A DNA stretch of 64,000 nucleotides from Mycolicibacter minnesotensis (GTDB lineage: Bacteria > Actinomycetota > Actinomycetes > Mycobacteriales > Mycobacteriaceae). Where the stretch lies: positions 2,852,001 through 2,916,000 of the forward strand of contig NZ_AP022589.1 of assembly GCF_010731755.1 (NCBI RefSeq), read 5' to 3'. The notes beneath the pieces were generated by a model. That model ran no database searches, had not been told where the DNA came from, and saw only the letters and a list, made by a program, of their open reading frames with translations. A program made the translations under genes and the position numbers. Positions 12,802 through 40,444 of this stretch are shown here, piece after piece (position 1 is the first letter of the stretch; every line of letters starts with the position of its first letter).

Positions 12802-12851
12802 GGTCAGCTCCTTCGAGCGGTTCCGCCTCATGATGTTGGGAACACAACGAC

Positions 12852-12898
12852 ATGCTCGCTCGCCGGAGCCGCGACGGCCTCAGTGGTGCACTACTGCA
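12852..12898 (-). promoter_or_regulatory. Regulon site 1: 20-bp palindrome plus -10 box for the secreted protein gene
   Basis: On the minus strand, TGCAGTAGTGCACCACTGAG occupies 12898 down to 12879. After exactly 21 nt comes GAGCAT (12857-12852), an nAnnnT hexamer; the start codon is 51 nt further. The site is a near-palindrome (CAGTRGTGCACYACTG core), and placed at about -43 it would cover the -35 region, the place of a class II activator. Three further copies lie near 29.8 and 33.5 kb. Confidence 0.7.
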
Positions 12899-12908
12899 TC
12901 TGCGATCC

Positions 12909-12946
12909 TTGACACCTTGACACAAAAAACTATTCTTTGTGTCAAG
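12909..12946 (+). promoter_or_regulatory. Promoter with perfect inverted-repeat operator for the oxygenase-TetR operon
   Basis: TTGACA (12909-12914), a 16-nt spacer and TATTCT (12931-12936) form a promoter reading toward 12964. A perfect 11-bp inverted repeat, CTTGACACAAA (12916-12926) and TTTGTGTCAAG (12936-12946) with a 9-nt spacer, covers the spacer, the -10 box and the start point. This is a textbook repressor operator, most likely bound by the TetR protein encoded second in the operon. Confidence 0.75.
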
Positions 12947-12963
12947 CCAGCCGAGGAGGCCAC

Positions 12964-13920
12964 ATGACCGCAGTGACCAGCAACGTCACCCGCATTGCCC
13001 CGACCGCTCGGATACGGCCCGAGGTCATGGCCCAGTTCCGCCGGCACTCCGGCAGCGTGTTGTCGGGCCTGTTCGGCGCCGCAGCTTTCGACGAGGTGGC
13101 GTTGGTGCCGGTGGCCGCCGCCGTCGACAAGACCGGTCGCTTCGAACGTAACTTCACCGACCGCGCCATCCGCAGCGGATTCTCTGCGCTGCTTGCCATC
13201 TGGGGCGATGCCGAGGACCGCGCCGCCGAAGGCGAACGACTCAAGCGGATGCACCGCGACGTGCACGGCCACGGCAAGGGGGAATTCGCCGACGTTCGCT
13301 ACAGCGCACTGAACCCCCGCCTGTGGAACTGGATCGCGATCAGCGGCATGTTCGTGACGCTCAATTCCTTCACCCCCGTCACCGGCATCGCCTGGAATGA
13401 CGCCGAACGAGAGGCCGCCTACCAGCAGCTGATCGAGGCTTTTGGGGCCCTTGAGCTGCCCGGCAAATCCGGCAAGTTCCCCGCCAGCTATGCCGCGGCC
13501 GCCGCCTACTACGACGAGATGGTGCACAGCGACCTGGCGGCCAACCCCTTCTTGGATCGCGTCACCGCCGGTCTGGGACGGCTGCCGCTGCCCTCGGCGC
13601 TGCCGGCGCCGGTTCGGGCCGCGGCCGCTCCGCTGTGGTCGGTCCTGAGCGCCGGGGCGGGACGGGTGGTGAAGATCTGCTCGTTCGGGATCATGCACCC
13701 GGGCGTGCGGGAGCTGACCGGCTTCCGGTGGGAACCGCGCCACGACGCCGAATTCGCCTTCTACACCCAGCTTGTGCAGATGGCGTGGCGGGTCCTGCCG
13801 GATCGTGTGGTGCTGGTGCCGCTGGCCTATAACCGGATGCAGTACGAGAAGCTGGTCAAGATGCATCGCTCGGTCGCGCTGGACTCCTTCGCGCCGCCGG
13901 CCGGCTGTCCGATGCGATGA
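12964..13920 (+). CDS. Oxygenase MpaB family (DUF2236) protein
   Basis: A 318-residue soluble protein of the DUF2236/MpaB-like family, common in mycobacteria and thought to be haem-dependent oxygenases. Visible family features are the N-terminal basic helix with an early glycine-rich turn (SGSVLSGLFG), an Arg/His segment (LKRMHRDVHGHG, about residues 97-108) and a conserved aromatic region later in the chain. GAGGAGG at 12953-12959 is a strong ribosome binding site for the ATG at 12964. The gene precedes tetR by 13 nt, and the operator overlapping its promoter suggests induction by a small ligand, possibly the substrate. The reaction is unknown. Confidence 0.8.
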   Translation: MTAVTSNVTRIAPTARIRPEVMAQFRRHSGSVLSGLFGAAAFDEVALVPVAAAVDKTGRFERNFTDRAIRSGFSALLAIWGDAEDRAAEGERLKRMHRDVHGHGKGEFADVRYSALNPRLWNWIAISGMFVTLNSFTPVTGIAWNDAEREAAYQQLIEAFGALELPGKSGKFPASYAAAAAYYDEMVHSDLAANPFLDRVTAGLGRLPLPSALPAPVRAAAAPLWSVLSAGAGRVVKICSFGIMHPGVRELTGFRWEPRHDAEFAFYTQLVQMAWRVLPDRVVLVPLAYNRMQYEKLVKMHRSVALDSFAPPAGCPMR

Positions 13921-13933
13921 CGCACTGGCCCCG

Positions 13934-14521
13934 ATGACAGCGCGACGCAACACCGCCAGCCCCGCCGAGCAGGAGGCGGCCATCCTCAAAGCGGCCGCCG
14001 AGGAAGTCGGTCTGGTGGGGGTGGGGCGCGCGAGCCTTGATGTGATCGCCCGCCAGGCGGGGGTCAGCCGCAGCACTTTGTACCGGCGCTTCCCGACCCG
14101 CGACGCGTTGATCACCGAGCTCGGGCGACAGGCCTTCGACAACGCGATGCTTCAGCTGCGCACCGTCGCCGTGGACTCCGGCCCGCAAAACGCTGCGGTC
14201 GCGGCGTTTCGGGCCGGATTGCGGGTGCTCATCTCCGACCCGGTGGTGCGCAAGCTGCTGCGGCTCGATGCCGGGGTGCCGATGATGGCCGGGATGTACC
14301 GCGAGGTCGAGGTCTTCCTGGACAGTGCCTCGGGGGCCATGGCCAAGGCGCTGCGCGCCGCCGGAGCTACCATGCCCGACGAGGAATTGGTGGCCGCCGC
14401 CGAACTGCATGTGCGCCTGGCTGCTTCGATCGCTCAGGTGCCCACGTCGGTGCTAGACCCGGGCGATGAGCAGGCGGTCAGCGCGTATGCGACAAAGTAT
14501 CTGGCCCCGCTGATCTGGTAG
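13934..14521 (+). CDS. TetR/AcrR family transcriptional repressor
   Basis: A 195-residue regulator with an N-terminal helix-turn-helix (residues 35-65: ASLDVIARQAGVSRSTLYRRF) and a helical ligand-binding C-terminal domain. It is the second gene of the operon with the DUF2236 protein. The perfect inverted repeat over that operon's promoter is the obvious candidate operator, giving negative autoregulation. A longer upstream reading frame exists but would run through the preceding gene. The 3' end overlaps the convergent MFS gene by 44 nt. Confidence 0.9.
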   Translation: MTARRNTASPAEQEAAILKAAAEEVGLVGVGRASLDVIARQAGVSRSTLYRRFPTRDALITELGRQAFDNAMLQLRTVAVDSGPQNAAVAAFRAGLRVLISDPVVRKLLRLDAGVPMMAGMYREVEVFLDSASGAMAKALRAAGATMPDEELVAAAELHVRLAASIAQVPTSVLDPGDEQAVSAYATKYLAPLIW

Positions 14522-15827: not shown

Positions 15828-15840
15828 CCGCGGCGGCGGT

Positions 15841-17235
15841 TCAGTCCTTCACCTTGGCCATGGCCAGCACGTCGAGGCGGCGGTCCAGCTCTTCCTCCGA
15901 CAGATTCTCGCCGATCAGGCCGCGGTCGATCACCGTCTGACGGATGGTCTTGCGCTCCTTGAGGGCCTGCTTGGCCACCGCGGCGGCCTCCTCGTAACCG
16001 ATCGCGGAGTTCAGCGGGGTCACGATCGACGGGCTGGACTCGGCCAGCTCGCGCAGGTGCTCCTCATTGGCGACCAGTCCGACGATGCAACGCTCGGCGA
16101 ACAGGCGCGAGACGTTGGACAGCAGCGTGAAGGACTCCAGCGTGTTGCGGGCCATCATCGGGATGTAGACGTTGAGCTCGAATGCGCCGTTGCCGCCGCC
16201 CCAGGCGATCGCGGCGTCGTTGCCGATCACCTGCGCCGCCACCTGGGTGACCGCCTCGGGCAGCACGGGGTTCACCTTGCCCGGCATGATCGAGCTGCCC
16301 GGCTGCAGGTCGGGAAGCTGGATCTCGGCCAGCCCGGTCAGCGGGCCCGAGCCCATCCACCGGATGTCGTTGGCGATCTTGGTCAGCGACACCGCGATGG
16401 TGCGCAGCGCACCCGACGCCTCAACCAGGCCGTCACGTGCCGCCTGCGCCTCGAACGAGTTCGCCGCGGTGCGCAGCTCGGTGATCCCGGTCTCGGCCAC
16501 CAGGACCTCGACCACCTTGGCGCCGAAGCCGTCGGGGGCGTTCAGGCCGGTGCCGACGGCGGTGCCGCCGATTGCCAGCTCGCCCAGGCGGGGCAAGGTG
16601 GCCTGAACCCGCTCGATACCGGCGGCGATCTGACGTGCGTACCCGGAGAACTCCTGGCCCAGGGTCACCGGGACGGCGTCCATCAGGTGGGTGCGGCCCG
16701 ACTTCACCACCGTGCGCCACTGCGCGGCCTTGTCGGCCAGCGCCTCATGCAGCACCTGCAGCGACGGAATCAGGTGGCGCACCGCGGCCTCGGTGGCCGC
16801 AATGTGGGTGGCGGTCGGGAACGTGTCGTTGGACGACTGCGACATGTTCACGTCGTCGTTGGGGTGCACCGTGACGCCGTTGGCCGCCGCGATAGAGGCG
16901 ATCACCTCGTTGGTGTTCATGTTCGAGCTGGTGCCCGACCCGGTCTGGAACACGTCGATCGGGAACTGGTCGTCGTGCTTGCCGTCGGCGATCTCGGCGG
17001 CGGCGGCCTTGATGGCGGCGGCCTTCTCCGGGGCCAGCAGGCCCAGGTCGGCGTTCACCTGCGCACAGGCGCTCTTGAGCAGCCCGAGCGCCCGGATCTG
17101 GGTGCGCTCCAGGCCGCGACCGGAGATGGGGAAGTTCTCCACCGCGCGCTGGGTCTGCGCGCGCCACAACGCGGTGACCGGCACCCGGACCTCGCCCATG
17201 GTGTCGTGTTCGATGCGGTATTCGATCTCGCTCAT
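15841..17235 (-). CDS. fumC: Class II fumarate hydratase
   Basis: FumC interconverts fumarate and malate in the TCA cycle as a cytosolic homotetramer without an iron-sulfur cluster. The 464-residue sequence shows the superfamily signature [11 protein letters not shown] (flexible catalytic loop with its serine), the [14 protein letters not shown] substrate segment and [12 protein letters not shown]. Length and place match Rv1098c. It follows glpX by 25 nt on the same strand and is followed by a carboxylate-type MFS carrier. Confidence 0.97.
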
Positions 17236-17260
17236 AGCTTTTCCGGTCCTCGCTAGACGG

Positions 17261-18292
17261 TCAGGGCAGGGGGTAGGCGGCGTGAGAGTCGCCGGTGAAG
17301 TCGACGGCCGAGTACTCGTTGAGCTTCGACAGCCGGTGGTAGGCCTCGATCATCCGGACGGTGCCGGACTTGGAGCGCATCACGATCGATTGGGTGGTGC
17401 AGCCGCCGGGGTAGTAGCGAACCCCCTTGAGCAGGTCGCCATCGGTGACACCGGTGGCGCAGAAGAACACGTTCTCCCCGGAGACCAGGTCTTCGGTGGT
17501 CAGCACCGCGTCCAGGTCGTAACCGGCGTCGAGCGCCCGCTGCCGCTCGGCGTCGTCGGTGGGCGCCAGCTGGGCCTGGATCGCCCCGCCCATGCAGCGG
17601 ATCGCGGCCGCGGCGATGATGCCCTCGGGGGTTCCGCCGATACCGGCCAGCATGTCGGTGCCCGAGTCCGGCCGGCACGCCGAGATGGCGCCGGCCACGT
17701 CGCCGTCGGTGATCAGGCGAATGCGCGCCCCGGTGGCGCGCGCGTCGGTGATGAGCTGCGCGTGCCGGGGCCGGTCCAGGATGCACACCGTCATGTCACG
17801 GGCGGTCAGGCCCTTGACCTTGGCGACAGCGGCGATGTTGTCCGCGATCGGCTTGGTGATGTCCAAGACGTCCGCGGCTTCGGGGCCGACGGCGATCTTG
17901 TTCATGTAGAACACCGCCGACGGGTCGAACATCGCGCCGCGCTCGGCCACCGCCAGCACCGAGATCGCGTTGGGCATGCCCTTGCTCATCAAGGTGGTGC
18001 CGTCCACCGGGTCGACCGCGAAGTCGCAGTCCGGGCCGTCGCCGTTGCCCACCTCTTCGCCGTTGTAGAGCATCGGCGCGTGGTCCTTCTCGCCCTCGCC
18101 GATCACCACGACGCCGCGCATGGACACCGAGTTCACCAGCTCACGCATGGCGTCGACGGCCGCGCCGTCGCCGCCTTCCTTGTCGCCGCGGCCTACCCAG
18201 CGGCCAGATGCCATGGCACCGGCCTCGGTCACCCGCACCAGCTCCATGGCCAGGTTGCGGTCTGGAGCTTCACGTCGCGTGGGTCCCGTCAT
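17261..18292 (-). CDS. glpX: Class II fructose-1,6-bisphosphatase
   Basis: GlpX dephosphorylates fructose 1,6-bisphosphate, the committed step of gluconeogenesis, and is the main FBPase of mycobacteria. The 343-residue product carries the metal-site segments [11 protein letters not shown] and [12 protein letters not shown] and the C-terminal [13 protein letters not shown], nearly identical to Rv1099c. The ATG at 18292 ([13 protein letters not shown]) adds 15 residues before the [13 protein letters not shown] start used in the tuberculosis protein, so the shorter start is also possible. Divergent from the DUF4245 gene. Confidence 0.96.
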
Positions 18293-18357
18293 GCCAGTCA
18301 CGGCTGATGATTCTCCCAGAGCCGGATCAGCAGTATTGAGCTGGGATACTGGCTCCC

Positions 18358-18987
18358 GTGACCAACGAGCCCCAGCCGGCGCCCAAGCCCGCCAAACCAC
18401 GCATCTTGCAGGACTGGCGCGACATGTTCTGGTCGCTCGTTCCGCTGGTCCTGGCCTGCGTGGCGCTGGCCGGTCTCGCCGGAACCTGCGCCTTTCGGCC
18501 GGGAGGGGTCACCGCGGGGCCGGTGCCCGCCTATGACGCAGTGACAGCGCTGACCGCCGACGCGCAGACGTTGGGGTTCCCGGTGCGCCTGCCCAAACTG
18601 CCCGAGGGCTGGCAGCCCAACTCCGGCAGTCGCGGCAGTATCACCGACGGGCGCACCGACGCCTCGGGCCAGCGATTGCGGGCGGTCACCTCGCGGGTGG
18701 GCTATGTCAGCCGGTCGGGCAGGTACATCAGCCTGACGCAGAGCAACGCCGACGAGGTGGCCCTGGTCTCCTCGATCCGGCCCGGCCTGCATCCCACCGG
18801 CAGCGAGGACGTCGACGGCACCCGTTGGGTGGTCTACGGCGGTGAGGGCGATCCGGTGTGGACCACCCGGCTGGCCGGAAAGTCGGGGGCGGCGCAGCTG
18901 GCGATCACCAGTGCGGGCGACGCGGAGGTGTTCCGCACCCTGGCTGCGGCCGTGCAGTCACAGCCGCCGCTGCCGTCGACCCGCTAG
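18358..18987 (+). CDS. DUF4245 membrane-anchored protein (Rv1100-like)
   Basis: A 209-residue protein with a short cytosolic N-terminus containing a Pro/Lys-rich stretch, one membrane helix (residues 25-43, [19 protein letters not shown]) and an extracytoplasmic domain of about 165 residues. That domain has the DUF4245 pattern ([17 protein letters not shown] and a late [17 protein letters not shown]). The place after divergent glpX matches Rv1100. The GTG start lies 7 nt after GATACT, a weak nAnnnT hexamer. Function unknown. Confidence 0.85.
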
Positions 18988-19005
18988 CCGCCGGGCGTAG
19001 TTTTC

Positions 19006-21182: not shown

Positions 21183-21196
21183 GAGCCTCCTCGGTT

Positions 21197-21222
21197 GTTG
21201 ATTTTGCATTAAACAAATCAAC
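21197..21222 (-). promoter_or_regulatory. Inverted repeat upstream of the SDR gene, probable operator
   Basis: GTTGATTT (21197-21204) and AAATCAAC (21215-21222) form a perfect 8-bp inverted repeat with a 10-nt AT-rich spacer, directly upstream of the SDR ribosome binding site. Size and spacing suit a dimeric repressor of the TetR type. No cognate regulator gene adjoins it. Confidence 0.5.
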
Positions 21223-21321
21223 CGTGTGGCGCTGCGGGCCTATTCTTTTCCGATCGGGTGAAATCCCGGATCGGCGGCGTGACGATGGGCGCGACAATCA
21301 GGTGCCAGGGGTAGTGATTCC

Positions 21322-24300
21322 ATGACCACCTGCATCTCGTGCGGCACCGAATTGTCGCAGCACGCCAAGTTCTGCTCCGAATGCGGCGCATCGGTCGCGG
21401 TGCCTGCGCCCGCCGAATACAAGCAAGTCACGGTGTTGTTCGCCGATGTGGTTCATTCGATGGATCTTGCCGCTGAGGTGGGCGCGGAGCGGTTGCGCGA
21501 GATCATGGCCGAGCTGTTCGACCGGTGCAACGCCGTGGTGCGGCGGTATGGCGGCCGAGTGGAGAAATTCATCGGCGACGCAGTGATGGCCGTGTTCGGT
21601 GTGCCGCTGGCGTTGGAGGACCATGCGGTGCGGGGATGTCTGGCCGCGTTAGAGATTCAGCAACAGGCCCAACAACTGGCGGCCGAACTCTCTCGCGCCG
21701 ACGGTGTCGACCTGGCGCTGCGGGTGGGACTGAATTCCGGCCAGGTGGTCGCCGGAGAGCTCGGCTCGGCCACGCAGAACTACACGGCGATCGGAGAGGA
21801 GGTCGGTTTCGCGCAACGGATGGAGTCGGTGGCGCCGCCCGGGGGTGTGATGCTCAGCGAATCGACCGCCCGGCTGGTACACCACGTCGCGGTATTGGGC
21901 GAGCCCGAGCTGGCTCGGATCAAGGGCGTCGATGAGCCGGTGCCGGTGCATCGGCTATTGGGGATGTCCCCGGAGCGCCGGCACACTCCGCGCCATGATC
22001 CGCGGCTGGTGGGTCGGTCCTGGGAGATGGGGGCACTGCAGGGCATTTTGGACGAGGCGATCGCGGGTAACGGCTGCGTCGTCGGGTTAGCCGGTCCACC
22101 GGGAATCGGCAAGAGCCGCATCGCCCGCGAGGTCAGCGCCGCGGCGCGCAGCCGCGGTGTTGAGGTGTTCGCCGTCTACTGCGAGTCCCATGCGCGCGAA
22201 ATCCCTTTCCACACGGCGATTTCGCTGCTGCGCACCGCGCTCGGGATAGCGGACTTGGACGACGAGGCCGCGCGCGCTCGAGTCGAGGAGAGCGCTCCTG
22301 GCGCGGATCCGGAAGACCTGCTGCTCTTCGAAGATCTGCTCGGTATTCGGGGTGGGGCGCAGTTGTCTGCCATCGATCCCGATGCCCGTCGGCGCCGGGT
22401 GACACGGTTGGTCAACCTGGTCTCGCTGGCGCGCACCACCCCCGCGGTCTATGTCATCGAGGACGCGCATTGGATCGATGAGGTCAGCGACGCGTTGCTG
22501 GCGGATCTGCTGAGCGTGACGTCGCAGACCCCCTCGCTGGTGCTGATCACCTACCGGCCCGAATATCACGGGGCGCTGAGTCGGACGGCGAGCTCGCACA
22601 TCATCAACCTGGGGCCGTTGAATGCGTCACAGACGGCTCAACTCGCCGCGGATCTGGTCGGGTCGGACCCGTCGGCGGCACCCCTGCGCGGGCGGTTGGC
22701 CCAGCGGGCCGCCGGAAACCCGCTGTTCGCCGAGGAGATGGTCCGCGACCTGGCCGAGCGCGGTGTGCTGACCGGCTCGCCCGGAAACTATGCCTGCGCC
22801 CTCGATCATGCCGACCTTGTTGTGCCGGCTACGGTGCAGGCCACCATCGCTTCCCGCATCGACCGGCTTGACCCGGCGGTCAAGCGGACCCTGCAAGCCG
22901 CTGCGGTGATCGGATTGCGTTTCGACGCCGACCAGTTGGCGTTGCTTGATGGTGAGGCTCAGCTGAACCCCCTACTCGCCGCGGAACTCATCGATCGAGT
23001 CAGGATCGCCCCGCGCGCCGAATATGCCTTTCACCACCCCCTGATCCGCATCGTCGCCTATGAGTCTCAGCTCAAGGCCAAACGTGCGGCGCTGCATCGG
23101 CAGTTGGCTGCCGCGATCGAGGAACACCACGCGGATGCCCTCGACGAGAACGCCGCGCTGATCGCCGAGCATCTCGAGGCCGCCGATGATCTGCAGGCCG
23201 CGTTCGGCTGGCACATGCGTGCCGGAGGGTGGGCGCAGAACCGCGACATTCGCGCCGCGCGGCTGAGTTGGGAACGCGCCCGAGCGGTCGCCGACCGGTT
23301 GCCCATCAATAACCCTGGCCGGTCAGCGATGCGGATCTCTCCGCGAACCCTGTTGTGCGGCAGCACCTCGTGGGTCAGCGGGACCGTCGCCGACACCGGA
23401 TTCGATGAACTGCGCGAACTGTGCACCATGGCCGGCGACCAGGTGTCGCTGGCAGTCGGTATGGCAGGCTTGATGACGACGCTGATCTTCCACAGTCGCT
23501 ACGTCGACGCCTCACGGGTGGCTTCGGACTGTGTCCACCTGTTGGAGTCGATCGGAGACCCGGATCTCATGGTGGCGCTGGCCATCGCGCCGGGCAACAT
23601 CAAGATCCAGGCCGGCGAGGCAGTCGAGTGTCTGCGGTTGGCCGACCGCATCATCGAGTTGGCCGAGGGCGATCTCACCAAGGGGAATCTGCTGATCGGT
23701 TCGCCGCTGGTGATCGCGCTGATGTTTCGCGGCTCCTGCCGATACTGCCTGGGGTTGCCCGACTGGAGAGCGGACCTCGACGAGGCGCTGGAGCGGGCCC
23801 GTGAGGTGGACGTGCGGACCTTTGTCACCGCCGTACTGGCCAAGTACGGCTTTGCGATTCACTCCGGGGTGCTGCTTCCCGACGCGGCGGCAGATCGGCA
23901 CACCGCGGAAGCACTGGCGAGGGCGGAGCATTCCGGCGACGACTACGCGGTGGACACCGCACTGCTGACCCGCGGACTGGTGCTGGTTCGGCAGGGCGGC
24001 GCGCAACGCGAGGCCGGGATGGCATTTCTGGCCGCCTATCGTGACGCCTACCTGCGGCACGGGTATGTACAGGACAGCGTGCGCTTCTACGACACCGAGC
24101 TTGCTCGCGAGCAGGCCCGTATCGGTGACGTCGACGCAGCGATCCACACCGCACGCGCCGCCGTGGATTACCTGTTCGACGTGGGAGACATGATCGCGCG
24201 TGGCGAGGCCGTCCGAGTCTTCGTCGAGTCACTGCTGCAGCGCGCCACCCCGGCAGACCTGGGCGAAGCGCAGGCCGCCGTTGACCGACTGGCCTCGGTA

Positions 24301-24474
24301 CCCACAGATCCCGGGTATGCACTGAACGCGATTCCGCTGCTGCGCATGCGTGCCCTTTTGGCCCGCGCCCACGGCGACGATGCCGGCTACCGCGAAAATG
24401 CCGCCCGCTACCGTGCGCAAGCCGTCGATGCCGGATATGAGGGGCACATCGCCCTGGCGGAGGCGATGACGTGA
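21322..24474 (+). CDS. Zinc-ribbon / class III cyclase-like / AAA ATPase / TPR-like regulatory protein
   Basis: A 1050-residue cytosolic protein. Order of parts: an N-terminal zinc ribbon (Cys4, Cys7, Cys18, Cys21), a class III nucleotidyl cyclase-like domain (about 33-195), an AAA/STAND ATPase with P-loop GPPGIGKSR near residue 258, then helical repeats to the end; no DNA-binding domain. In the cyclase part the metal aspartates (Asp42, Asp86) and Lys82 are present, but the transition-state Asn is Gly162 (EEVGFAQRM), with Arg166 kept, so activity is uncertain. It resembles the mycobacterial Rv0386/Rv1358/Rv2488c group. The LuxR-type ATPase gene begins 10 nt downstream, so the two likely act together. 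Confidence 0.85.
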   Translation: MTTCISCGTELSQHAKFCSECGASVAVPAPAEYKQVTVLFADVVHSMDLAAEVGAERLREIMAELFDRCNAVVRRYGGRVEKFIGDAVMAVFGVPLALEDHAVRGCLAALEIQQQAQQLAAELSRADGVDLALRVGLNSGQVVAGELGSATQNYTAIGEEVGFAQRMESVAPPGGVMLSESTARLVHHVAVLGEPELARIKGVDEPVPVHRLLGMSPERRHTPRHDPRLVGRSWEMGALQGILDEAIAGNGCVVGLAGPPGIGKSRIAREVSAAARSRGVEVFAVYCESHAREIPFHTAISLLRTALGIADLDDEAARARVEESAPGADPEDLLLFEDLLGIRGGAQLSAIDPDARRRRVTRLVNLVSLARTTPAVYVIEDAHWIDEVSDALLADLLSVTSQTPSLVLITYRPEYHGALSRTASSHIINLGPLNASQTAQLAADLVGSDPSAAPLRGRLAQRAAGNPLFAEEMVRDLAERGVLTGSPGNYACALDHADLVVPATVQATIASRIDRLDPAVKRTLQAAAVIGLRFDADQLALLDGEAQLNPLLAAELIDRVRIAPRAEYAFHHPLIRIVAYESQLKAKRAALHRQLAAAIEEHHADALDENAALIAEHLEAADDLQAAFGWHMRAGGWAQNRDIRAARLSWERARAVADRLPINNPGRSAMRISPRTLLCGSTSWVSGTVADTGFDELRELCTMAGDQVSLAVGMAGLMTTLIFHSRYVDASRVASDCVHLLESIGDPDLMVALAIAPGNIKIQAGEAVECLRLADRIIELAEGDLTKGNLLIGSPLVIALMFRGSCRYCLGLPDWRADLDEALERAREVDVRTFVTAVLAKYGFAIHSGVLLPDAAADRHTAEALARAEHSGDDYAVDTALLTRGLVLVRQGGAQREAGMAFLAAYRDAYLRHGYVQDSVRFYDTELAREQARIGDVDAAIHTARAAVDYLFDVGDMIARGEAVRVFVESLLQRATPADLGEAQAAVDRLASVPTDPGYALNAIPLLRMRALLARAHGDDAGYRENAARYRAQAVDAGYEGHIALAEAMT

Positions 24475-24484
24475 GGCGGCCACC

Positions 24485-27103
24485 GTGAGTCTGTCGTGGC
24501 CGCTCACCGGACGCTCGGCAGAGCTGCAGACCCTGCAAACAGCCCTGGCGACTCCCGAGACGTCCGGCGTGCTGGTGTGTGGTGCGTCAGGGGTGGGCAA
24601 GAGCCGGATCTGCCGCGAGCTGCTGGCGGTGGCCGCGCCCCAGGGGCAGGACCTGCGCTGGGCGATGTGCACCTCGTCCGCGCGAAACGTTCCACTCGGG
24701 GCGTTCGCCGCATGGGCACCTACGGGTGTCACCGACACGGTGCAGCTGATCCGCGGTCTGATCGAAGCCCTGACCGCCGCGCCGTCGGGTACTGCGGTGG
24801 TGGGCGTCGACGATGTGCACCTGATCGATGACCTGTCGGCCTTCGTGGTCCATCAGATCGTGCAACGTGGCCTGGCGAAAGTGATCCTCACCCTTCGTGA
24901 GGGCGAGTCCATTCCCGATGCCGTGCGCGAAATCTGGACTGCCGGCCGTTTCGAGCGCCTGGATCTGCAGCCGTTGTCGCTCAACGAGACCGCCGGTCTG
25001 CTGTCGGCGACATTGACTGGTTCGGTGGATGCCCATGCCGCTCAACGGCTGTGGAAGCTCACACAGGGCAATGCGCTGTATCTGCGTAGCATCGTCGAGC
25101 ACGAGCTGGCCGAGGGGCGCATGGTGCTCCGGCGCGATCAGTGGTGCTGGATCGGGGAACCGACCATGCCCCCGAGTTTGGCCGGATTTCTCGAACCGCG
25201 GATCGGGTCACTGCCCGGGCCGGTCGGTGACGTGGTCGATCTGTTGGCGGTCGCGGAACCGATCGAACTCGGGGCGCTGTCGCGCATCGGCGACCCCGCC
25301 GCGGTGGAGGAAGCCGAGGTACGCGGGCTCATCACGATCGAGTCCGGTGAAGGCGGTGCGCAGGTGCGGCTGGCGCACCCGTTGTACGGCGAGATCTGCC
25401 GCAGCCGCGCCGCCACCACCCGGCTGCGCAGGCTGCGCGGCCTGGTCGCTGCCGAACTCGCGGCTGACGAGGACCGCGACGACATCGCAGCACTGGTGCG
25501 TCGCGCCACCTTGACCCTTGAATCCGATCTCCCGCCGGACGCGGACCTGTTCACCCGGGCCGCCAGCGGCGCGGTCTGGCTCGCCGATCTGGTCCTCGCC
25601 GATCGACTCGCGCAGGCGGCCGCGCGTGCGGGCGCCGGGCCGGAGTCGAGTTTCGTCTCCGCGCATGCACTGTCGTGGCTGGGGCGCGGGGAGGAAGCCG
25701 ACGCGCTGTTGGCCAAGGTCGGAACCGGCGACCTCGATCATCGCGACCGAGCCAGGCTGGCGTTCCTGCGCGCCAGCAATATGCTCTGGGCGCTGGGCGA
25801 ACCCGCGCGCGCCAAGGACATCATCGATGCTGCCTCGGCCACCGTGCCGTCACCAGCCCGCAGCTATATCGACGCCTTTCTGGCGGTGTACTGGTTTGCC
25901 ACCGATGATCTGGATTCGGCCCGACAGGCCTCGGAGCATCTGGATCTGGAGGACCTGCCGCCGGTGGTGGGCGCCGAAATCGCCTGGGTGCTCAGCGCCA
26001 TCTCCGCGGATGCGGGCCGCGCCACCGATGCCCTGACCGCCGCGGACACGGGGTACACCATCGCGGCCCGCTCCTTGGACGCCCCGCAGATGATGTTCAA
26101 CATCGCCGATGCCCACGTCAGTGCGCTGATGTGGGCGGGACGGCTCGACGAGGCCGTTGAGGTGGCGGAGCGGGTGCGCCGGCAGGCTGCCGACCTGCCG
26201 GGTGCGGCCCAGCTCCTGGGCGCCGCGATCGCGGGCCGGGCGGCGCTGGGGGCCGGCTGTGTCGACTCGGCCGATCAGCTGTTGGAGCAGGTCGCGCTGG
26301 CCTTCTCCGAGCGCGGCCATGGCAGCGGCTGGGGATACCGGTATCTGCTGCCGCGGATCACCGCACTGGCCCTGCGTGGTCGCATCGACGCCGCGGCGAC
26401 CGCGCTGGACAGTCTCGATACGGTACGGCGGCGCTTCCGGTTGCTTGACCATGAGCGGAGCCTGGCTCGAGCTTGGGTGGCCGCCGGCCAGGGCGCAGTC
26501 CGGGAGGCGATCACCGTCCTGCGGTCGGCGGCCGAGGCGGCCGCGGCCAAAGGACAGTTCGCGGCGGAAGTGATGTGTCTGCAGACCGCCGCTCAGTTCG
26601 GGGACAGCGCCGGTGCCGCCCGGCTACGTGAGCTTGAAGCTGTCGTCGAGGGGCCGCGGGTTGGTCTGGCCGTCCGGTTCGCCGCCGCGCTACGTGATGG
26701 AGATGCCGCGGAATTGGCCGCGGTGTCGCTGGACTTCGAGCGCATCGGGGATCTGGTCGCGGCGATCGATGCTGCCGCCCAGGCGGCGATCGGCTACCGC
26801 CGCAAAGACCTACGGGGAACAGCGTTGGTCTGCGGAACCCGCGCCGCCGCCCTGGCCGAACAGTGCGGTGGCGCGAGCACGCCGGCGCTACGTCAAGCCG
26901 CGCAGCCCTTGCCGTTGACCGAGCGCGAGCAGGAGATCGTGATGTTGATCAGCGCGGGGTTGTCCAATCGGGAGATCGCCGAGCGGCTGACGCTGTCCGT
27001 TCGCACTGTCGAAAGTCATATCTACCGGGCCATGTTGAAAACGGACACCAACGGCCGCGACGAGCTCGCCGCTCTGCGACCGCACCGCCGAAGCGATTCC
27101 TGA
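24485..27103 (+). CDS. Large ATP-binding LuxR-family (LAL-type) transcriptional regulator
   Basis: An 872-residue STAND-type regulator: N-terminal ATPase with P-loop CGASGVGKS (residues 32-40) and a Walker B-like VGVDDVHLID, a long helical sensor region, and a C-terminal LuxR helix-turn-helix (about residues 812-865: LTEREQEIVMLISAGLSNRE, ending in VESHIYRAM). Such proteins bind a ligand with ATP, oligomerise and activate promoters, usually at sites overlapping -35. It is read from a GTG 10 nt after the cyclase-AAA gene. It is the nearest regulator to the P450/BAHD genes and the best candidate in this window to bind the shared 20-bp palindromes; that link is inference. Confidence 0.87.
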   Translation: MSLSWPLTGRSAELQTLQTALATPETSGVLVCGASGVGKSRICRELLAVAAPQGQDLRWAMCTSSARNVPLGAFAAWAPTGVTDTVQLIRGLIEALTAAPSGTAVVGVDDVHLIDDLSAFVVHQIVQRGLAKVILTLREGESIPDAVREIWTAGRFERLDLQPLSLNETAGLLSATLTGSVDAHAAQRLWKLTQGNALYLRSIVEHELAEGRMVLRRDQWCWIGEPTMPPSLAGFLEPRIGSLPGPVGDVVDLLAVAEPIELGALSRIGDPAAVEEAEVRGLITIESGEGGAQVRLAHPLYGEICRSRAATTRLRRLRGLVAAELAADEDRDDIAALVRRATLTLESDLPPDADLFTRAASGAVWLADLVLADRLAQAAARAGAGPESSFVSAHALSWLGRGEEADALLAKVGTGDLDHRDRARLAFLRASNMLWALGEPARAKDIIDAASATVPSPARSYIDAFLAVYWFATDDLDSARQASEHLDLEDLPPVVGAEIAWVLSAISADAGRATDALTAADTGYTIAARSLDAPQMMFNIADAHVSALMWAGRLDEAVEVAERVRRQAADLPGAAQLLGAAIAGRAALGAGCVDSADQLLEQVALAFSERGHGSGWGYRYLLPRITALALRGRIDAAATALDSLDTVRRRFRLLDHERSLARAWVAAGQGAVREAITVLRSAAEAAAAKGQFAAEVMCLQTAAQFGDSAGAARLRELEAVVEGPRVGLAVRFAAALRDGDAAELAAVSLDFERIGDLVAAIDAAAQAAIGYRRKDLRGTALVCGTRAAALAEQCGGASTPALRQAAQPLPLTEREQEIVMLISAGLSNREIAERLTLSVRTVESHIYRAMLKTDTNGRDELAALRPHRRSDS

Positions 27104-27130
27104 TTCCGGTCAGCGGTGAACCCGACGGAT

Positions 27131-28429
27131 TCATCGCGGGAGGACGTCACCGGCACACCGGAACCGGTGCAGGTGTTCCCGAACAGCGGGGCTGGACATG
27201 GCCTCGAATTCTCTGGGCGGCAACGACATCTGAAAGACCAACCCGTGACCGTCGGCCCCTTCCATCAGGGCGCCGAGGCCCGCAACCGGCAACCTCATCA
27301 ACGGGGTGCAGTAATACGGCCAGGTGTCTTCGAAGTGGATGCGATAGACGCCGAAGCCGCTCCAGTTCGTGATGATCGGATTCCACTGGACCGGATCGAA
27401 GGCAGCGGAGACGCAGCGGGCGGCCCGCCAAGAACCGGCGGCGTCGAAGAACTGTTGGTTGATCCGCATGTCGCAGTGCTCGTCGGAAAAGTGGTCCACA
27501 CTGTGGCGGATGCGTTCGGCGATGGCACTGGCGGCCTCTCCACGTCGCAGGTCCAGGTTGAGCGTCGTAAGGATGTTGCCGGCGAGCATCGGATCCAGGC
27601 CGCACCGCTTCCGGGTGTTCACGGCGATCGCGAGCCTGCGACGATCCACCACAGGATCGGCCCTCATGAGCGATTCGGACATGTGAGCGCACACAACGTC
27701 GTTGGCCGACAAACGCATCCGGCTGCCGTAGGCGCCGGGCATACGAGCGATCTCGTCGTCGGTGAAGTACAGATTCAGAGTCCGCTGCGAGCGAGCATCC
27801 TTTGCCAGGTAAAGCCCACTGCGGGCGAGTTCTGCCCATCCCAGACAACGCACCCCGGGCTCCCGAGCGCCGTCGGTGGGCAGGTGTTCGTCGAGATAGG
27901 CGGCGCGGTCTTCCACGATCAACGGCTCTGCGACCGGCCTGCCCGCAGCGGCAGCGACCCACGCGTTCATGAAGTGCATCGCCGTCTGCATGTCGCCGAT
28001 CGTGTGGTGCCAGGAAAATCCGATCGCCGCAGCCTCGTTCGCGAGATGGGTGAGGCGCACCTTGCACAAGGGACCTCGCACCCATCGCGCTGCGGGGCCG
28101 TTGACCGGGTCGATGAGCCAGCCTCCGCTGTCCTCTGATGCCGAACGAATCGCCTGCCGCAGCGTGCGTCCAGAGGACACGGTGGTGAAGGGCACCCCCT
28201 GCCCCGCGCAACGGATTCGCATCCTGCCGTGGCTCATGGCCAATCGCCCCGCGAAGAGGGGAAAGCTGTCGAGCACCTGCGCAAAGGCGCCGGTGAGCGC
28301 CCGCGCCTCGAGCCGCCGGGGGAAGAAGAAGACAATGTGGACGGCCAGGTTCGCGACGATCGCATCGCCGACGTTGCAGCGGATGTCGAACCGTTGTGGG
28401 TGACGTGGCTGGATGAGCTGGGTCGACAT
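27131..28429 (-). CDS. BAHD/condensation-superfamily acyltransferase
   Basis: A 432-residue CoA-dependent acyltransferase-like protein. The catalytic HHTIGD (His142-x-x-x-Asp146) sits mid-chain and a second motif, TNWSGFGVYRIHFEDTWP (354-371), aligns with the plant/fungal BAHD signature in which NW..F.. precedes DFGWG. Here DFGWG is degenerate (HFEDTW). Overall plan and length (430-450) fit BAHD enzymes, which transfer an acyl group from CoA to a hydroxyl or amine. The ATG lies 6 nt after the stop of the P450 gene, so they form one transcription unit: the P450 could install a hydroxyl that this enzyme acylates. PapA- or WS/DGAT-type relatives are the alternative. No signal peptide. Confidence 0.75.
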   Translation of the reverse strand: MSTQLIQPRHPQRFDIRCNVGDAIVANLAVHIVFFFPRRLEARALTGAFAQVLDSFPLFAGRLAMSHGRMRIRCAGQGVPFTTVSSGRTLRQAIRSASEDSGGWLIDPVNGPAARWVRGPLCKVRLTHLANEAAAIGFSWHHTIGDMQTAMHFMNAWVAAAAGRPVAEPLIVEDRAAYLDEHLPTDGAREPGVRCLGWAELARSGLYLAKDARSQRTLNLYFTDDEIARMPGAYGSRMRLSANDVVCAHMSESLMRADPVVDRRRLAIAVNTRKRCGLDPMLAGNILTTLNLDLRRGEAASAIAERIRHSVDHFSDEHCDMRINQQFFDAAGSWRAARCVSAAFDPVQWNPIITNWSGFGVYRIHFEDTWPYYCTPLMRLPVAGLGALMEGADGHGLVFQMSLPPREFEAMSSPAVREHLHRFRCAGDVLPR

Positions 28430-28435
28430 GATGGT

Positions 28436-29782: not shown

Positions 29783-29821
29783 GTCTTCCTCCCACGGTGT
29801 TGTGCTGCGGCGCCCAGAAGA

Positions 29822-29868
29822 ATCGTCGCGCCGGCGCCACCGAACGCGCTCAGTAGTGCGGTACTGCA
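29822..29868 (-). promoter_or_regulatory. Regulon site 2a: palindrome plus -10 box for the P450-acyltransferase operon
   Basis: On the minus strand, TGCAGTACCGCACTACTGAG runs from 29868 to 29849. Exactly 21 nt later is GACGAT (29827-29822), an nAnnnT hexamer; the P450 ATG follows 40 nt further. It is divergent from, and only 13 bp away from, site 2b, so the two promoters are back to back. Confidence 0.75.
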
Positions 29869-29881
29869 AACCGGGCGAGAT

Positions 29882-29928
29882 TGCAGTGGCCCGCCACTGC
29901 GGTCGTTCTGCCGGACGCGAGTCACGCT
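29882..29928 (+). promoter_or_regulatory. Regulon site 2b: palindrome plus -10 box for the small ORF-ABC exporter operon
   Basis: TGCAGTGGCCCGCCACTGCG (29882-29901) is followed after 21 nt by CACGCT (29923-29928), again of the form nAnnnT, then by the ATG at 29966. A GACGAT, identical to the hexamer of sites 2a and 3, also occurs 8 nt further on (29931-29936), so the exact -10 is not settled. Confidence 0.7.
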
Positions 29929-29943
29929 GTGACGATCACAGCG
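29925..29943 (+). promoter_or_regulatory. Perfect short hairpin at the predicted 5' end of the ABC operon mRNA
   Basis: CGCTGTGA and TCACAGCG are perfect 8-bp arms around a CGA loop. Placed at the predicted start of transcription, it could be a 5' stabilising stem-loop or a protein site. It resembles CRP half-sites (TGTGA/TCACA), but the 3-nt spacing is wrong for CRP. Confidence 0.45.
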
Positions 29944-29965
29944 CACAAGAAAGAAGGCGCACATC

Positions 29966-30157
29966 ATGGCCACGATGTCTGCGGCACACGCCCATCCGCT
30001 GCTGGTGCCCAACCTGAAGCACGTCGAGCTCGTCGTTGTTGGCGCCGTGCGGGCAATGTTCCGCCGCGGGAGGCGGACGGAACGGGCCCACTATGTGCCG
30101 CCGTTGAACGTTCTTCTCGAGGACGCCGCCATGGCGCGAGAGCTGCGGCACCTGTGA
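29966..30157 (+). CDS. Small protein translationally coupled to the ABC exporter
   Basis: A 63-residue ORF, MATMSAAHAH at its start, with a hydrophobic patch (about residues 20-30) followed by a basic stretch (RRGRRTERAHY) and an amphipathic C-terminus. Its TGA overlaps the ATG of the ATPase gene (TGATG), so ribosomes would re-initiate there. GAAGG at 29953-29957 is a usable ribosome binding site, and the gene sits at the expected distance behind regulon site 2b. The coupling and promoter make it likely to be a real gene. No known family is recognised; an accessory peptide of the exporter is possible. Confidence 0.6.
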   Translation: MATMSAAHAHPLLVPNLKHVELVVVGAVRAMFRRGRRTERAHYVPPLNVLLEDAAMARELRHL

Positions 30158-30924
30158 TGGCGCAACCCGCACCGGTCGGCGGGCCGGGTGTTTCCGGCCG
30201 ACACCGCTACCGCTGCGCCCCGAAGCCAGTGGCGCTGCAGCTCAAGGGCGTCGCCAAGCAGTACCGCTTGGGCGACGAGCAGGTGAACGTGCTTGTCGAG
30301 TTCGACTTTGACGTCACTGCAGGAGAATTCGTCGTCGTGACCGGACCGTCGGGCGCCGGAAAGTCGACCCTGCTGCATGTCGCCGGGGGGCTGGATGCGC
30401 CGGATACCGGCACGGTCGTCGTCGCCGGCCACGATGTGTGGGCGATGAGCGCGCGGGCCCGGGCCGAGTTCCGGCTCCGCAACCTGGGATTCGTGTTCCA
30501 GTTCTTCAATCTGGTGCCGATGCTGACCGCCATCGAGAATGTGTCGTTGCCGCTGGTGCTTGACGGGGTGTCGGCCCGGTCGGCGGATGCGCGCGCGGAG
30601 GAGCTGCTGCATCGGGTCGGGCTTGCCGACCGGGCTCGACATCGGCCGGCCGAACTGTCGGGTGGACAGATGCAGCGGGTCGCGGTCGCGCGTGCGCTGG
30701 CGGCCCGGCCGTCGATCATCCTTGCCGACGAGCCGACCGGGAACCTCGACCGGCGTTCGTCGATGGAGATCGTGGAGCTGCTGCGCTCGCTGTCGGATGA
30801 GGACGGCACCGCGGTGGTGGTGGTGACACACGACCGGGGAGTAGCCCGCTACGGCTCCCGCGAGGTGCACTTGGTCGACGGGCGCGCCTATGCAGTCGCC
30901 GGCGTATCCGGCGCGCGGCGATGA
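30157..30924 (+). CDS. ABC transporter ATP-binding protein, MacB/LolD type
   Basis: A 255-residue nucleotide-binding subunit. Walker A GPSGAGKST (residues 63-71), Q-loop in FVFQFFNLVP, signature LSGGQMQR (167-174), Walker B IILADEPTG (187-195) and the H-loop His in VVTHD are all intact. The VFQFFNLVP Q-loop and length place it with the MacB/LolD group, which drives FtsX-fold permeases in mechanotransmission-type export or lipoprotein/lipid release. It overlaps the small ORF by 1 nt and the permease by 4 nt (ATGA), so all three are one coupled operon. Confidence 0.95.
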   Translation: MAQPAPVGGPGVSGRHRYRCAPKPVALQLKGVAKQYRLGDEQVNVLVEFDFDVTAGEFVVVTGPSGAGKSTLLHVAGGLDAPDTGTVVVAGHDVWAMSARARAEFRLRNLGFVFQFFNLVPMLTAIENVSLPLVLDGVSARSADARAEELLHRVGLADRARHRPAELSGGQMQRVAVARALAARPSIILADEPTGNLDRRSSMEIVELLRSLSDEDGTAVVVVTHDRGVARYGSREVHLVDGRAYAVAGVSGARR

Positions 30925-33503
30925 TCCGGCGACTGTCGGCCGGGTGGGTGTCTTTTCGGCGAATCCACCTCGCCGCACTGGGCGCCGATTGGCGCCGCAC
31001 GCTGCTCAGCGTGATCGGTGTCGCGGTGGGGGTCATGGTGGTACTCGGGGTCTTGGTCCTCAAGTCCGAACTGGTTCGTCCGTTCGACGCATTCGGTCCG
31101 TCGCTGGCCCACGCCGCCGATAGCGGGGTCGTCGAGGTGACCCCGAACATCGACGGCCGGTTGCCGATCGAGACGGTGGACCGCCTGCGCACCGAGGTTG
31201 CCGGCGCGCAGGCGGTGATCCCGATCGTCGCCGGCCTGACGCCGGTGGACATCGCCGGAGGCAGCGACACTCGCCCCGCCGAGTCACCCCCGGGTTTCTT
31301 CCTGCTCGGCGGGTCCTGCCAGATCGAGCTGTTGGTCGGTTCTTTCAACTGCGAGCAGCGCGCCAAAGACCAGCCCGCGGCCGGACCCGGGGTGCCACTG
31401 CAGATTCCGGAGGTGATCGCTGCGCGGCATCACCTGCAGCTCGGCGCCGAGCTGCGCATCCCCGGTCTACCCCCAGGCTCGGCACATGTGGGGTGGATGT
31501 TCCAAGAGTTCGACCGCGTGGCCGACATCAACGGGGGCTACGTCCTGCTGGCGCCCTCCGGGGACATCGCCGCTGAACTGCTCTCGGCACGCGGCTACGT
31601 CACCGCTGCGTTCGTCGTGCCGAGACCTGAGGCTGACATCACCGCCGGCATCGACCGTGTCATCGCCGGCGTCGCAACGGCAGGCCCGCCCCGGCCGCAC
31701 CAGCCGGCCATCTTCGCCAACGTCGCACAGAGCCTGGACCTGACCGCGCTGTGCGGCGTTCTGATCGGCTTCCTCATCGCGCTGAACACCATTCTGTTGG
31801 CCATCGAGGATCGGCGGGCGGTGCTGGGGACCATCGGCGCGATCGGCGCCAAGCCGGTCGGGCTGTTCGGCGGCATGCTCGGCGAGGGCGCCGTGGTGGG
31901 CCTTCTCGGGGGCCTGGCCGGGGTGCCGGGCGGCTTTCTCCTGGGGTGCTACCTGGTGGACCGGTTCGGGCGGTCCATGTTGTCCGGCTCCGGTGGCACC
32001 GTCACAGCACACTTCACGCCGAGCCTGATCGTGGCCGGTGCGGTCGCGGGAACGGTCTGCGGCATCCTCGCGATGATCGGCCCGGCCATGCGGCTGGCCC
32101 GGGAAGGGCCGCTGGCGTCGATGGCCAGCGCCGGCGGGGTGCAACGTGCCCGGACCATCTCGATCTGGCCGCTGCTGGCCGGGACGGCTGCGCTGGCAGG
32201 CGCTTTCGTCGTGATGACGATCTTCGAGCACGGGTCGCTGCCGGCACATGTGGGCATCAACGCAATATCGTTGTGGCAGTTAGGGGTCGCGCTGACGACG
32301 GTGTGGCTCGCCCCGCGTGGTGCACGGCTGCTCATCGAACTGCTGACGCTCGCCCGCCCCGACGTCGGGCGCCTGCTGGGAGCCGACGTGCGGCGCTACG
32401 CGCTGCTGTTCGCCATCTCCGCGGCCATCCTGGCCATCGGCGCCAGCTTGGCGATCGCCGCGCAGAGCATGCAGTTGCTCGGCACCGAGCAGGTCGCCGC
32501 GCAGAAGGCCCAGCGATTGCCGGACTCCCTGCTCATCACCGCGCAATCGATACTCGATCAGCGGGACGGTCAACTCCCCGATGCCACGCTCGCGCTGGCG
32601 ACCGACGCGGCCGGCGGGCGCAGCGTGTCGTCGCGGTGGAGGTCGATGATCTCCTCGGGCACCGTTGCGCGCCTCGTCATCGGCGTTACGCCGGGTGACT
32701 GGTTCAGCCAGGGGCTGTATCAGCCGACCGGTGCCTCCGACACTTTCTGGGAGGAGCTCCGGGCCGGGCAGATCGGCCTGAGCGAGATCGCCGCCAGCCG
32801 GCTCGGTGTGGCCAGGGGCGGGACGGTCGAGCTGCCCACCGTGGCGGGATCGAAGCGATACCGGGTGGCGGGGATCATCTCGCCGCGGATGATCGATGAC
32901 TCCGCGGTGGGCGACATCGTGGTGGCCTCGGAAGCCGTCGCGCGCGCGGACTGGGCGGCGGCGCGCGATCAGATCGCCGTGCGCTATCCGACCGCCGCCG
33001 AGGCGACCGCGCATCGCGCTGATTTTCTGGCGCTGGGCGCCGGACTGTCGGTGTATGACAACCAGCAGTGGCGTACTGCCGCCACCGGCGGACTCACGCG
33101 ATTTCTGGAGCCCTTGACGGTCGCCGCATACGTGGTGATGGCCGCGGCCGGGCTGAGCGTGCTCAATGTCTTCGTCCTGGGGCTGGTGCAACGCAAGCGG
33201 GAGCGGGCCGTGTTGCGGGCGATCGGCGCGCGGCCCGGACAGGAGCAGGCTGTCGTCGCGGCTCATGCCGGACTGCTGGGCCTGCTGGTGGCGCTACTCG
33301 GTGGGCTCGGGGGAGTGGGGCTGACCTATCTCTGGTCGATGGGCTCACCGGTGTTCTACGGCACCACGATTGACGGGGACGTGCTCGGCCTACCGCTGCG
33401 AACCGGGGTGGCCGCCGTGACCGTGCTGGTGTTGGCGGCGGCGGTGTATCCGGCGATCCATGCGCGGCGGTTGGAGACGGCCGAGGTACTACGGACCGCC
33501 TGA
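30921..33503 (+). CDS. FtsX-like ABC transporter permease (MacB-type, fused tandem form)
   Basis: An 860-residue permease with two FtsX units. The N-terminal helix (residues 25-47, TLLSVIGVAVGVMVVLGVLV) is followed by a large extracytoplasmic MacB-core-like domain (50-270), then a group of helices. A second extracytoplasmic domain (about 520-725) and a final three-helix group (VAAYVVMAAAGLSVLNVFVL onward) follow. RKRERAVLRAIGA near the end is the typical cytosolic coupling motif. It works with the preceding ATPase. Such systems export peptides, lipoproteins or lipids; the cargo here may be the product of the divergent P450/acyltransferase pair, which is inference from shared regulation. Confidence 0.9.
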   Translation: MIRRLSAGWVSFRRIHLAALGADWRRTLLSVIGVAVGVMVVLGVLVLKSELVRPFDAFGPSLAHAADSGVVEVTPNIDGRLPIETVDRLRTEVAGAQAVIPIVAGLTPVDIAGGSDTRPAESPPGFFLLGGSCQIELLVGSFNCEQRAKDQPAAGPGVPLQIPEVIAARHHLQLGAELRIPGLPPGSAHVGWMFQEFDRVADINGGYVLLAPSGDIAAELLSARGYVTAAFVVPRPEADITAGIDRVIAGVATAGPPRPHQPAIFANVAQSLDLTALCGVLIGFLIALNTILLAIEDRRAVLGTIGAIGAKPVGLFGGMLGEGAVVGLLGGLAGVPGGFLLGCYLVDRFGRSMLSGSGGTVTAHFTPSLIVAGAVAGTVCGILAMIGPAMRLAREGPLASMASAGGVQRARTISIWPLLAGTAALAGAFVVMTIFEHGSLPAHVGINAISLWQLGVALTTVWLAPRGARLLIELLTLARPDVGRLLGADVRRYALLFAISAAILAIGASLAIAAQSMQLLGTEQVAAQKAQRLPDSLLITAQSILDQRDGQLPDATLALATDAAGGRSVSSRWRSMISSGTVARLVIGVTPGDWFSQGLYQPTGASDTFWEELRAGQIGLSEIAASRLGVARGGTVELPTVAGSKRYRVAGIISPRMIDDSAVGDIVVASEAVARADWAAARDQIAVRYPTAAEATAHRADFLALGAGLSVYDNQQWRTAATGGLTRFLEPLTVAAYVVMAAAGLSVLNVFVLGLVQRKRERAVLRAIGARPGQEQAVVAAHAGLLGLLVALLGGLGGVGLTYLWSMGSPVFYGTTIDGDVLGLPLRTGVAAVTVLVLAAAVYPAIHARRLETAEVLRTA

Positions 33504-33546
33504 TGTCCGGCGTCGCTAAGTACTACCGCTATGGAGACCGTGAAAC

Positions 33547-33593
33547 TGCAGTGGTGCGCCACTGAGCGCGGCTCACCCAACCTGAGTGACGAT
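33547..33593 (+). promoter_or_regulatory. Regulon site 3: palindrome plus -10 box for the secreted protein-PE-PPE operon
   Basis: TGCAGTGGTGCGCCACTGAG (33547-33566) is the most symmetric copy. GACGAT (33588-33593) follows after 21 nt and the start codon at 33652 is 58 nt further. Site, spacing and hexamer match the three other copies in the window. Confidence 0.75.
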
Positions 33594-33651
33594 CCTGGCA
33601 GCGGAGCGAAAACCGGCTTCGGAGTGTTCTTCACCACGACGGGAGATGGAC

Positions 33652-34224: not shown

Positions 34225-34263
34225 GGGACGTCCGGCTGTGACCCTATGGAGAGGAATCAGATC

Positions 34264-38989: not shown

Positions 38990-39048
38990 GTCGCTATCGT
39001 GTCACCGTCGACCCCTGGCTGGATAGCGGCTTCGGCGAAGAGACGATG

Positions 39049-40158: not shown

Positions 40159-40201
40159 CGGGCGAGCATAACTGAACGTGTTTCAGTTCTTGTGTTCGAA
40201 G

Positions 40202-40444
40202 TCACCCGCGGAGGTCGTCGCCGGGTTCTGCGTCGAGGGCTTCCTGCACTCGGCGGCGGGCTCCGGCCAGATGCTCTTCGCACCGCTTGGCCAGCTGCTC
40301 GCCACGTTCCCACAGGCTCAGCGACGCGTCGAGATCCAGCCCGCCCTGTTCCAACCGCTGCACCACATCGATCAGCTCATCCCGGCACTGCTCATAGCCC
40401 AGCTCACTAACGGGTGTCACCGGATCGGCTTGCTCAGCTGGCAT
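40202..40444 (-). CDS. xseB: Exodeoxyribonuclease VII small subunit
   Basis: An 80-residue helical protein with the family core [20 protein letters not shown] and [16 protein letters not shown]. XseB coats the XseA large subunit to form exonuclease VII, which cuts single-stranded DNA from both ends. The ATG at 40444 overlaps the end of xseA by 11 nt; a GTG at 40474 would lengthen the overlap. It is co-transcribed with xseA and the upstream Rv1109c-like gene. Confidence 0.93.

Follow-up and report, generated by a model that had tools for sequence, protein, structure and literature searches.

A conserved 20-bp palindrome at a fixed distance from a -10-like hexamer marks a probable local regulon beside a LAL-type LuxR gene in Mycolicibacter minnesotensis

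A 64,000-nucleotide stretch of the genome of Mycolicibacter minnesotensis (assembly GCF_010731755.1, contig NZ_AP022589.1, positions 2,852,001 to 2,916,000; hereafter the window, with positions counted from its first letter) contains four copies of a 20-bp palindrome, each pointing at a gene and each followed at a constant distance by a -10-like hexamer. Judged from the sequence, it seems likely, with a probability of roughly 0.8, that the four sites are the operators of a local regulon that is activated, in a class II arrangement, by an adjacent LAL-type LuxR protein. The parts of this reading differ in firmness. The sites are almost certainly genuine operators that keep a constant distance from their promoters, while the adjacent LuxR protein is very probably the binder of the box and the regulation is, with similar likelihood, activation.

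All four sites match TGCAGT-N8-ACTGMG without a mismatch, at the coordinates and on the strands given in a preliminary description of this DNA, and the nAnnnT hexamer that it had placed exactly 21 bp downstream is present in each case. The elements, with the scores of a site profile introduced below, are as follows:

12879..12898, minus strand: box 1, TGCAGTAGTGCACCACTGAG, profile score 44.7
12852..12857, minus strand: hexamer of box 1, -10-like GAGCAT, 21 bp from the box
29849..29868, minus strand: box 2, TGCAGTACCGCACTACTGAG, profile score 46.0
29822..29827, minus strand: hexamer of box 2, -10-like GACGAT, 21 bp from the box
29882..29901, plus strand: box 3, TGCAGTGGCCCGCCACTGCG, profile score 44.4
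29923..29928, plus strand: hexamer of box 3, -10-like CACGCT, 21 bp from the box
33547..33566, plus strand: box 4, TGCAGTGGTGCGCCACTGAG, profile score 47.6
33588..33593, plus strand: hexamer of box 4, -10-like GACGAT, 21 bp from the box

Boxes 2 and 3 lie 33 bp apart, centre to centre. The consensus of the site with its promoter geometry is TGCAGTRGYGCRCTACTGMG-N21-GACGAT. Both parts of the original pattern hold in the window but were refined by comparison: what stays constant in relatives is CAGT-N8-ACTG, whose inner bases are symmetric in part, and the hexamer consensus is GACGAT, of which box 3 has the poorest version. GACGAT on its own is frequent, with 55 occurrences in the window against 44.9 expected. 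If transcription begins 7 bp past the hexamer, the predicted 5' leaders in the window are about 44, 33, 31, and 46-52 nt long.

Frequent chance occurrence throughout the genome, which would have spoken against the motif, was not found. The 4,224,047-bp genome holds four exact matches to TGCAGT-N8-ACTGMG, which are the four boxes themselves; they fall within 20.7 kb, with none elsewhere, and the reversed control gives 0. When three mismatches are allowed, the window has no excess (97 found against 94.4 expected), so the signal is confined to exact sites. A third match in the same genome to the site with GAYGAT, at position 989045, was set aside as chance; it looks like conserved coding sequence and recurs nearly letter for letter in four other genomes (G078, G130, G110, and G139).

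The proposed activator and the gene directly before it are:

24485..27103, plus strand: LAL-type LuxR regulator of 872 amino acids, with an N-terminal AAA domain and a C-terminal GerE helix-turn-helix (HTH)
21322..24474, plus strand: protein combining a class III nucleotide cyclase with an AAA ATPase, directly before the luxR gene

The LuxR protein possesses an N-terminal AAA/P-loop domain (PF13191 at residues 7-119, E 2e-8) that includes the motif GASGVGKS, and a C-terminal LuxR (GerE) HTH (PF00196 at residues 810-862, E 6.5e-13). These two domains and the large size are those of the LAL subfamily, whose members span about 600-1000 amino acids. Among solved structures, the HTH matches NarL/DevR-type response regulators, and DevR (3c3w) is among the 14 matching chains.

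Further evidence comes from loci surrounding the best 80 of 123 LuxR relatives found (50-76% identity), some of which lie on short contigs. As a control, 20 loci around distant LuxR paralogs (36-43% identity) were used. The sites were oriented by their outer bases without regard to the hexamer, and ties were given the luxR strand. The 80 loci contain CAGT-N8-ACTG 81 times, spread over 55 of them, whereas any other spacing from 0 to 20 yields 6-19 occurrences. At an offset of 21, nAnnnT is found in 63 of the 81 sites and GAYGAT in 40, compared with no more than 9 and 3, respectively, at any other offset between 0 and 49. Grouping the sites by the similarity of the 100 bp downstream gave 58 clusters, and nAnnnT stands at offset 21 in 42 of these and at 22 in 6, two counts that may overlap. 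Counted without a filter, the hexamer varies least at A2 and T6 (46 and 43 of the 58 clusters). Of the 37 sites shortly 3' of luxR, 36 retain the hexamer, as do 33 of the 44 in other places.

The association follows the LuxR relatives. The palindrome occurs in 2 of the 20 paralog loci, and the site with nAnnnT at 21 or 22, in either orientation, in 51 of the 80 LuxR-relative loci versus 1 of the 20. A profile, for which 56 sites from these 80 loci were used, matches 53 of the loci, none of the 80 reversed sequences, and 1 of the 20 paralog loci. Across 148 genomes, the palindrome with GAYGAT gives 97 matches versus 23 for the reversed control. When matches are required to be symmetric in at least three of the four inner pairs, they are present in 25 of the 56 genomes with a LuxR relative (identity of 49% or higher, bit score of at least 765) versus 4 of the 92 others (Fisher p 3e-9, uncorrected for kinship). 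In Rhodococcus (L058) and Gordonia (L064), too, boxes adjoin LuxR relatives. The search of related genomes that the preliminary description had suggested found the palindromic form, the one-base-exact spacing, and the orientation again in other species, which supports its reading of a class II activator. As in class II activation, the operator lies at or overlaps the -35 region at a constant distance from the -10 (21 bp in 42 of the 58 clusters). Variant palindromes, TTAAGTA-N6-TACTTA, lie near LuxR relatives in L110, L113, and L100 and are perhaps a diverged box.

Based on these features, the LuxR C-terminal HTH would bind the palindrome TGCAGTRGYGCRCTACTGMG as a dimer. The downstream edge of the palindrome would reach the -35 region; taking GACGAT as the -10 puts the centre of the palindrome near -43.5. 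LuxR-type proteins activate from about the place occupied by a 20-bp palindrome that ends 21 bp before the -10, and lux and las boxes are likewise 20-bp palindromes at about -42. The dimer would recruit RNA polymerase to promoters without a recognisable -35, whose -10 carries an unusual G at position 1. Since GACGAT has this G and no ordinary -35 is seen, dependence on an activator is likely. The input signal is probably carried by the neighbouring cyclase/ATPase and by the ATPase domain of the LuxR protein itself.

Several observations weigh against this reading. The exact site with its hexamer is missing from the DNA covered at 29 of the 80 LuxR-relative loci, and the HTH segments of loci with and without sites look alike, as far as they were caught by a pattern that requires conserved residues and failed to catch several loci. 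Symmetric matches are absent from 31 of the 56 LuxR-bearing genomes and present in 4 of the 92 genomes that lack a close LuxR relative, and for 17 of 37 such matches, the contig carries no listed LuxR gene within 25 kb. At least one exact copy of the bare 20-bp pattern is present in 116 of 248 genomes from the genus, many of which match the reversed control too, so little can be read from a single exact match. Autoregulation was considered and rejected, as no box precedes luxR or the cyclase gene in the window at a profile threshold of 12. Furthermore, co-location is no proof of binding, and genomes that are related do not count as independent.

Some of these points would suit promoter-linked operators that are bound by another regulator, with luxR merely a frequent neighbour: the 29 of 80 LuxR loci lacking the site and hexamer, and the symmetric sites in 4 of the 92 genomes where no close LuxR relative is found. 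This alternative is nevertheless improbable because the sites track the LuxR clade (51 of 80 loci versus 1 of 20 around paralogs of 36-43% identity) and stand beside LuxR relatives in Rhodococcus and Gordonia too, while Pfam finds no DNA-binding domain, of the LuxR type or any other, in the adjoining cyclase/ATPase protein. To a similar degree, it is unlikely that the LuxR protein acts at the box as a repressor, or that a dedicated alternative sigma factor reads GACGAT together with a CTCGTC-like -35 after the palindrome. The -10 is indeed GACGAT rather than TANNNT, and positions 1-6 past the palindrome lean to CTCGTC in 53 sites preselected for the hexamer. However, the one-base-exact spacing without an ordinary -35 fits activation by an upstream dimer. 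Additionally, the bases most constant in the hexamer, A2 and T6 (46 and 43 of 58), are those typical of sigma-70-type -10 elements.

It is far less probable that the palindromes are RNA hairpins acting as terminators or attenuators. Although 37 of the 81 sites lie within 350 bp of a luxR stop codon, the other 44 do not, and 33 of these have the hexamer at 21 or 22; no regular run of T follows the sites when inspected by eye, and all four sites in the window aim at genes whose predicted leaders are short. As an explanation, chance matches in GC-rich DNA are practically negligible: the lack of an excess at three mismatches in the window and the exact matches in 116 of 248 genomes would agree with them, but they are refuted by the spacing statistics (N8, and the offset of 21, also per cluster), and reversed controls of 0 in the genome itself and 0 of 80 loci also speak against them.

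The genes that face the boxes in the window are:

12199..12831, minus strand: small secreted protein, 210 amino acids as called, facing box 1; no Pfam match
27131..28429, minus strand: BAHD-type acyltransferase (PF02458), on the box 2 side with the P450
28436..29782, minus strand: cytochrome P450, facing box 2; nearest solved chains CYP51
29966..30157, plus strand: small protein of 63 amino acids, the first open reading frame (ORF) after box 3
30157..30924, plus strand: ABC transporter ATPase, its ABC_tran domain found on a longer ORF, 29881-30924
30921..33503, plus strand: MacB/FtsX-type permease (FtsX, MacB_PCD)
33646..34224, plus strand: small secreted protein with its start at 33646 or 33652, facing box 4; no Pfam match
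34246..35799, plus strand: PE-PPE-domain protein (PF08237), after the secreted protein in the box 4 operon

The controlled genes are largely those previously proposed. The secreted protein at box 1 and the P450-acyltransferase pair at box 2 stand as described, with Pfam matches for the pair. The ABC exporter genes do follow box 3, but the 63-residue ORF comes first, and the box 4 operon contains the secreted protein followed by a single PE-PPE-domain protein rather than a PE gene plus a PPE gene. For the secreted protein at box 1, an alternative start at 12801, preceded by a Shine-Dalgarno-like GGAG, would give 200 amino acids, and a 200-residue relative with 92% identity exists in Mycolicibacter arupensis. 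The acyltransferase, although from a mycobacterium, has plant BAHD enzymes as its best solved matches (E 2e-8). By sequence, the MacB match of the permease is weak (E 7e-4). Under the proposed mechanism, activation would turn on the secreted proteins, the P450-acyltransferase pair, the small protein with the MacB-type exporter, and the PE-PPE-domain protein.

The boxed module recurs in other species. In L039 and L040, the P450-acyltransferase genes diverge from the small ORF-ABC-FtsX genes, with two boxes 32 bp apart, of which the one on the P450 side has a changed arm. In L038, the box pair is 33 bp apart as in the window, and the acyltransferase is present without the P450; in L069 and L101, the module is arranged differently. 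In addition, 52 proteins were taken mechanically from downstream of sites, three of them from the window and some in wrong frames (antisense ORFs in L041, L042, and L103, for example). The hexamer filter for this selection was stricter (nAnnAT or GAnnnT), and box 3 of the window fell out because CACGCT fails it. Pfam identified among the 52 six ABC ATPases, five PE-PPE proteins, three P450s, two polyketide synthase-type acyltransferases, two MMPL proteins, two PE proteins, and two methyltransferases. Those with a Pfam match have mostly cell-envelope and export functions. One apparent regulon member, 38929-40143 on the plus strand, was rejected as antisense to a 3-beta-hydroxysteroid dehydrogenase (3-beta-HSD)-like gene (39049-40158, minus strand); related sites at six other loci have the small ORF downstream instead.

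The box also points to a widespread family of small proteins. A profile search for relatives of the 63-residue protein retrieved 499 database proteins at E <= 0.01; among the best 120 of these, no Pfam domain was listed, and the named relatives are hypothetical or uncharacterized proteins. Matches at E <= 0.001 occur in 81 of the 148 genomes, and weaker relatives are found in many mycobacteria, with up to four per genome. The family members inspected (the window, L036-L044, L058, L066, L069, and L103) are 56-120 amino acids long and share a C-terminus that is mostly HYPP...AMAREMxRL, or more loosely, in the 14 rows compared, HYPP...AMAREMxxL. The stop codon of the small ORF overlaps the start of the ABC ATPase gene (TGATG). 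A codon-position test was weak, as third positions held the largest share of the differences in some pairs (23 of 47, L040/L041) and not in others (15 of 39, window/L038), and the ORF is taken as coding because of its conserved frame, C-terminus, and placement. Among relatives at 30 loci, an exact palindrome lies no more than 500 bp upstream of the 8 best-scoring, in 7 cases with the hexamer, and of none of the 22 weaker, a count that is not independent since at least 4 of the 8 served to build the profile. This suggests that the box accompanies one subgroup of a larger family. A more speculative and rather doubtful proposal is that the box marks a hitherto undescribed actinobacterial module, in which the cyclase/ATPase and LAL-LuxR pair senses a signal and switches on a modified, exported small protein in mycobacteria and rhodococci, similar to a ribosomally synthesized and post-translationally modified peptide (RiPP) or a lipopeptide. 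In that case, the P450 and the BAHD acyltransferase would modify the HYPP...AMAREM segment, and the small protein would be exported or completed via the translationally coupled MacB-type transporter.

The genes of LAL regulators are often part of the very cluster under their control, and a cluster-situated regulator of this type is an already known kind. To our knowledge, binding sites have been defined for few regulators of the LAL type. SCO6993 shares the N-terminal AAA/ATPase domain and the C-terminal LuxR HTH but is 606 rather than 872 amino acids long (PMC9628970). The mycobacterial Mclx proteins (Rv0386, Rv1358, and Rv2488c), which are described as nearly exclusive to mycobacteria, join cyclase, AAA, and LuxR domains in one polypeptide (PMC4452763); the abstract and introduction of that paper name no binding site for them. 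In the window, the same three domain types are divided between two adjacent genes, cyclase/ATPase and ATPase/LuxR, with the cyclase and the LuxR HTH in separate proteins, and the pair resembles an Mclx protein split in two.

DevR (DosR), a mycobacterial protein of the LuxR/NarL type, is alike in its HTH and in having a proximal box that overlaps the -35 element (PMC3029386). In contrast to the ATPase half of the window protein, DevR carries a receiver domain. The consensus of the present sites also differs from the Dev box, which is of the GGGACT type. Likewise, the arms of the window boxes are CAG...CTG, in contrast to CTG...CAG in las-type boxes. In open-access literature searched by palindrome, regulator, and topic, the matches listed showed no description of the box sequence. 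Fully spelled palindromes retrieved no paper, and among the papers listed for degenerate or shorter forms, only a 10-mer of the box matched, and none was mycobacterial by title. With a promoter geometry exact to one base and a range that reaches from Mycolicibacter to Rhodococcus and Gordonia, the box allows the regulon of a LAL-type LuxR protein to be predicted and tested.

The cluster is bounded by conserved fum/glpX/DUF4245 genes (15841-18987) and 3-beta-HSD/xseA genes (39049-41705). Paralogous cyclase/AAA ATPase genes stand around it, at 21322-24474 and 35780-38989 in the window, and L039 has four such genes in a row, one cut by the end of the locus. Gene content beside these flanks varies among the Mycolicibacter loci L035-L044, which marks a variable chromosomal spot, and in L044 this spot holds fragments of acyltransferase and FtsX genes.

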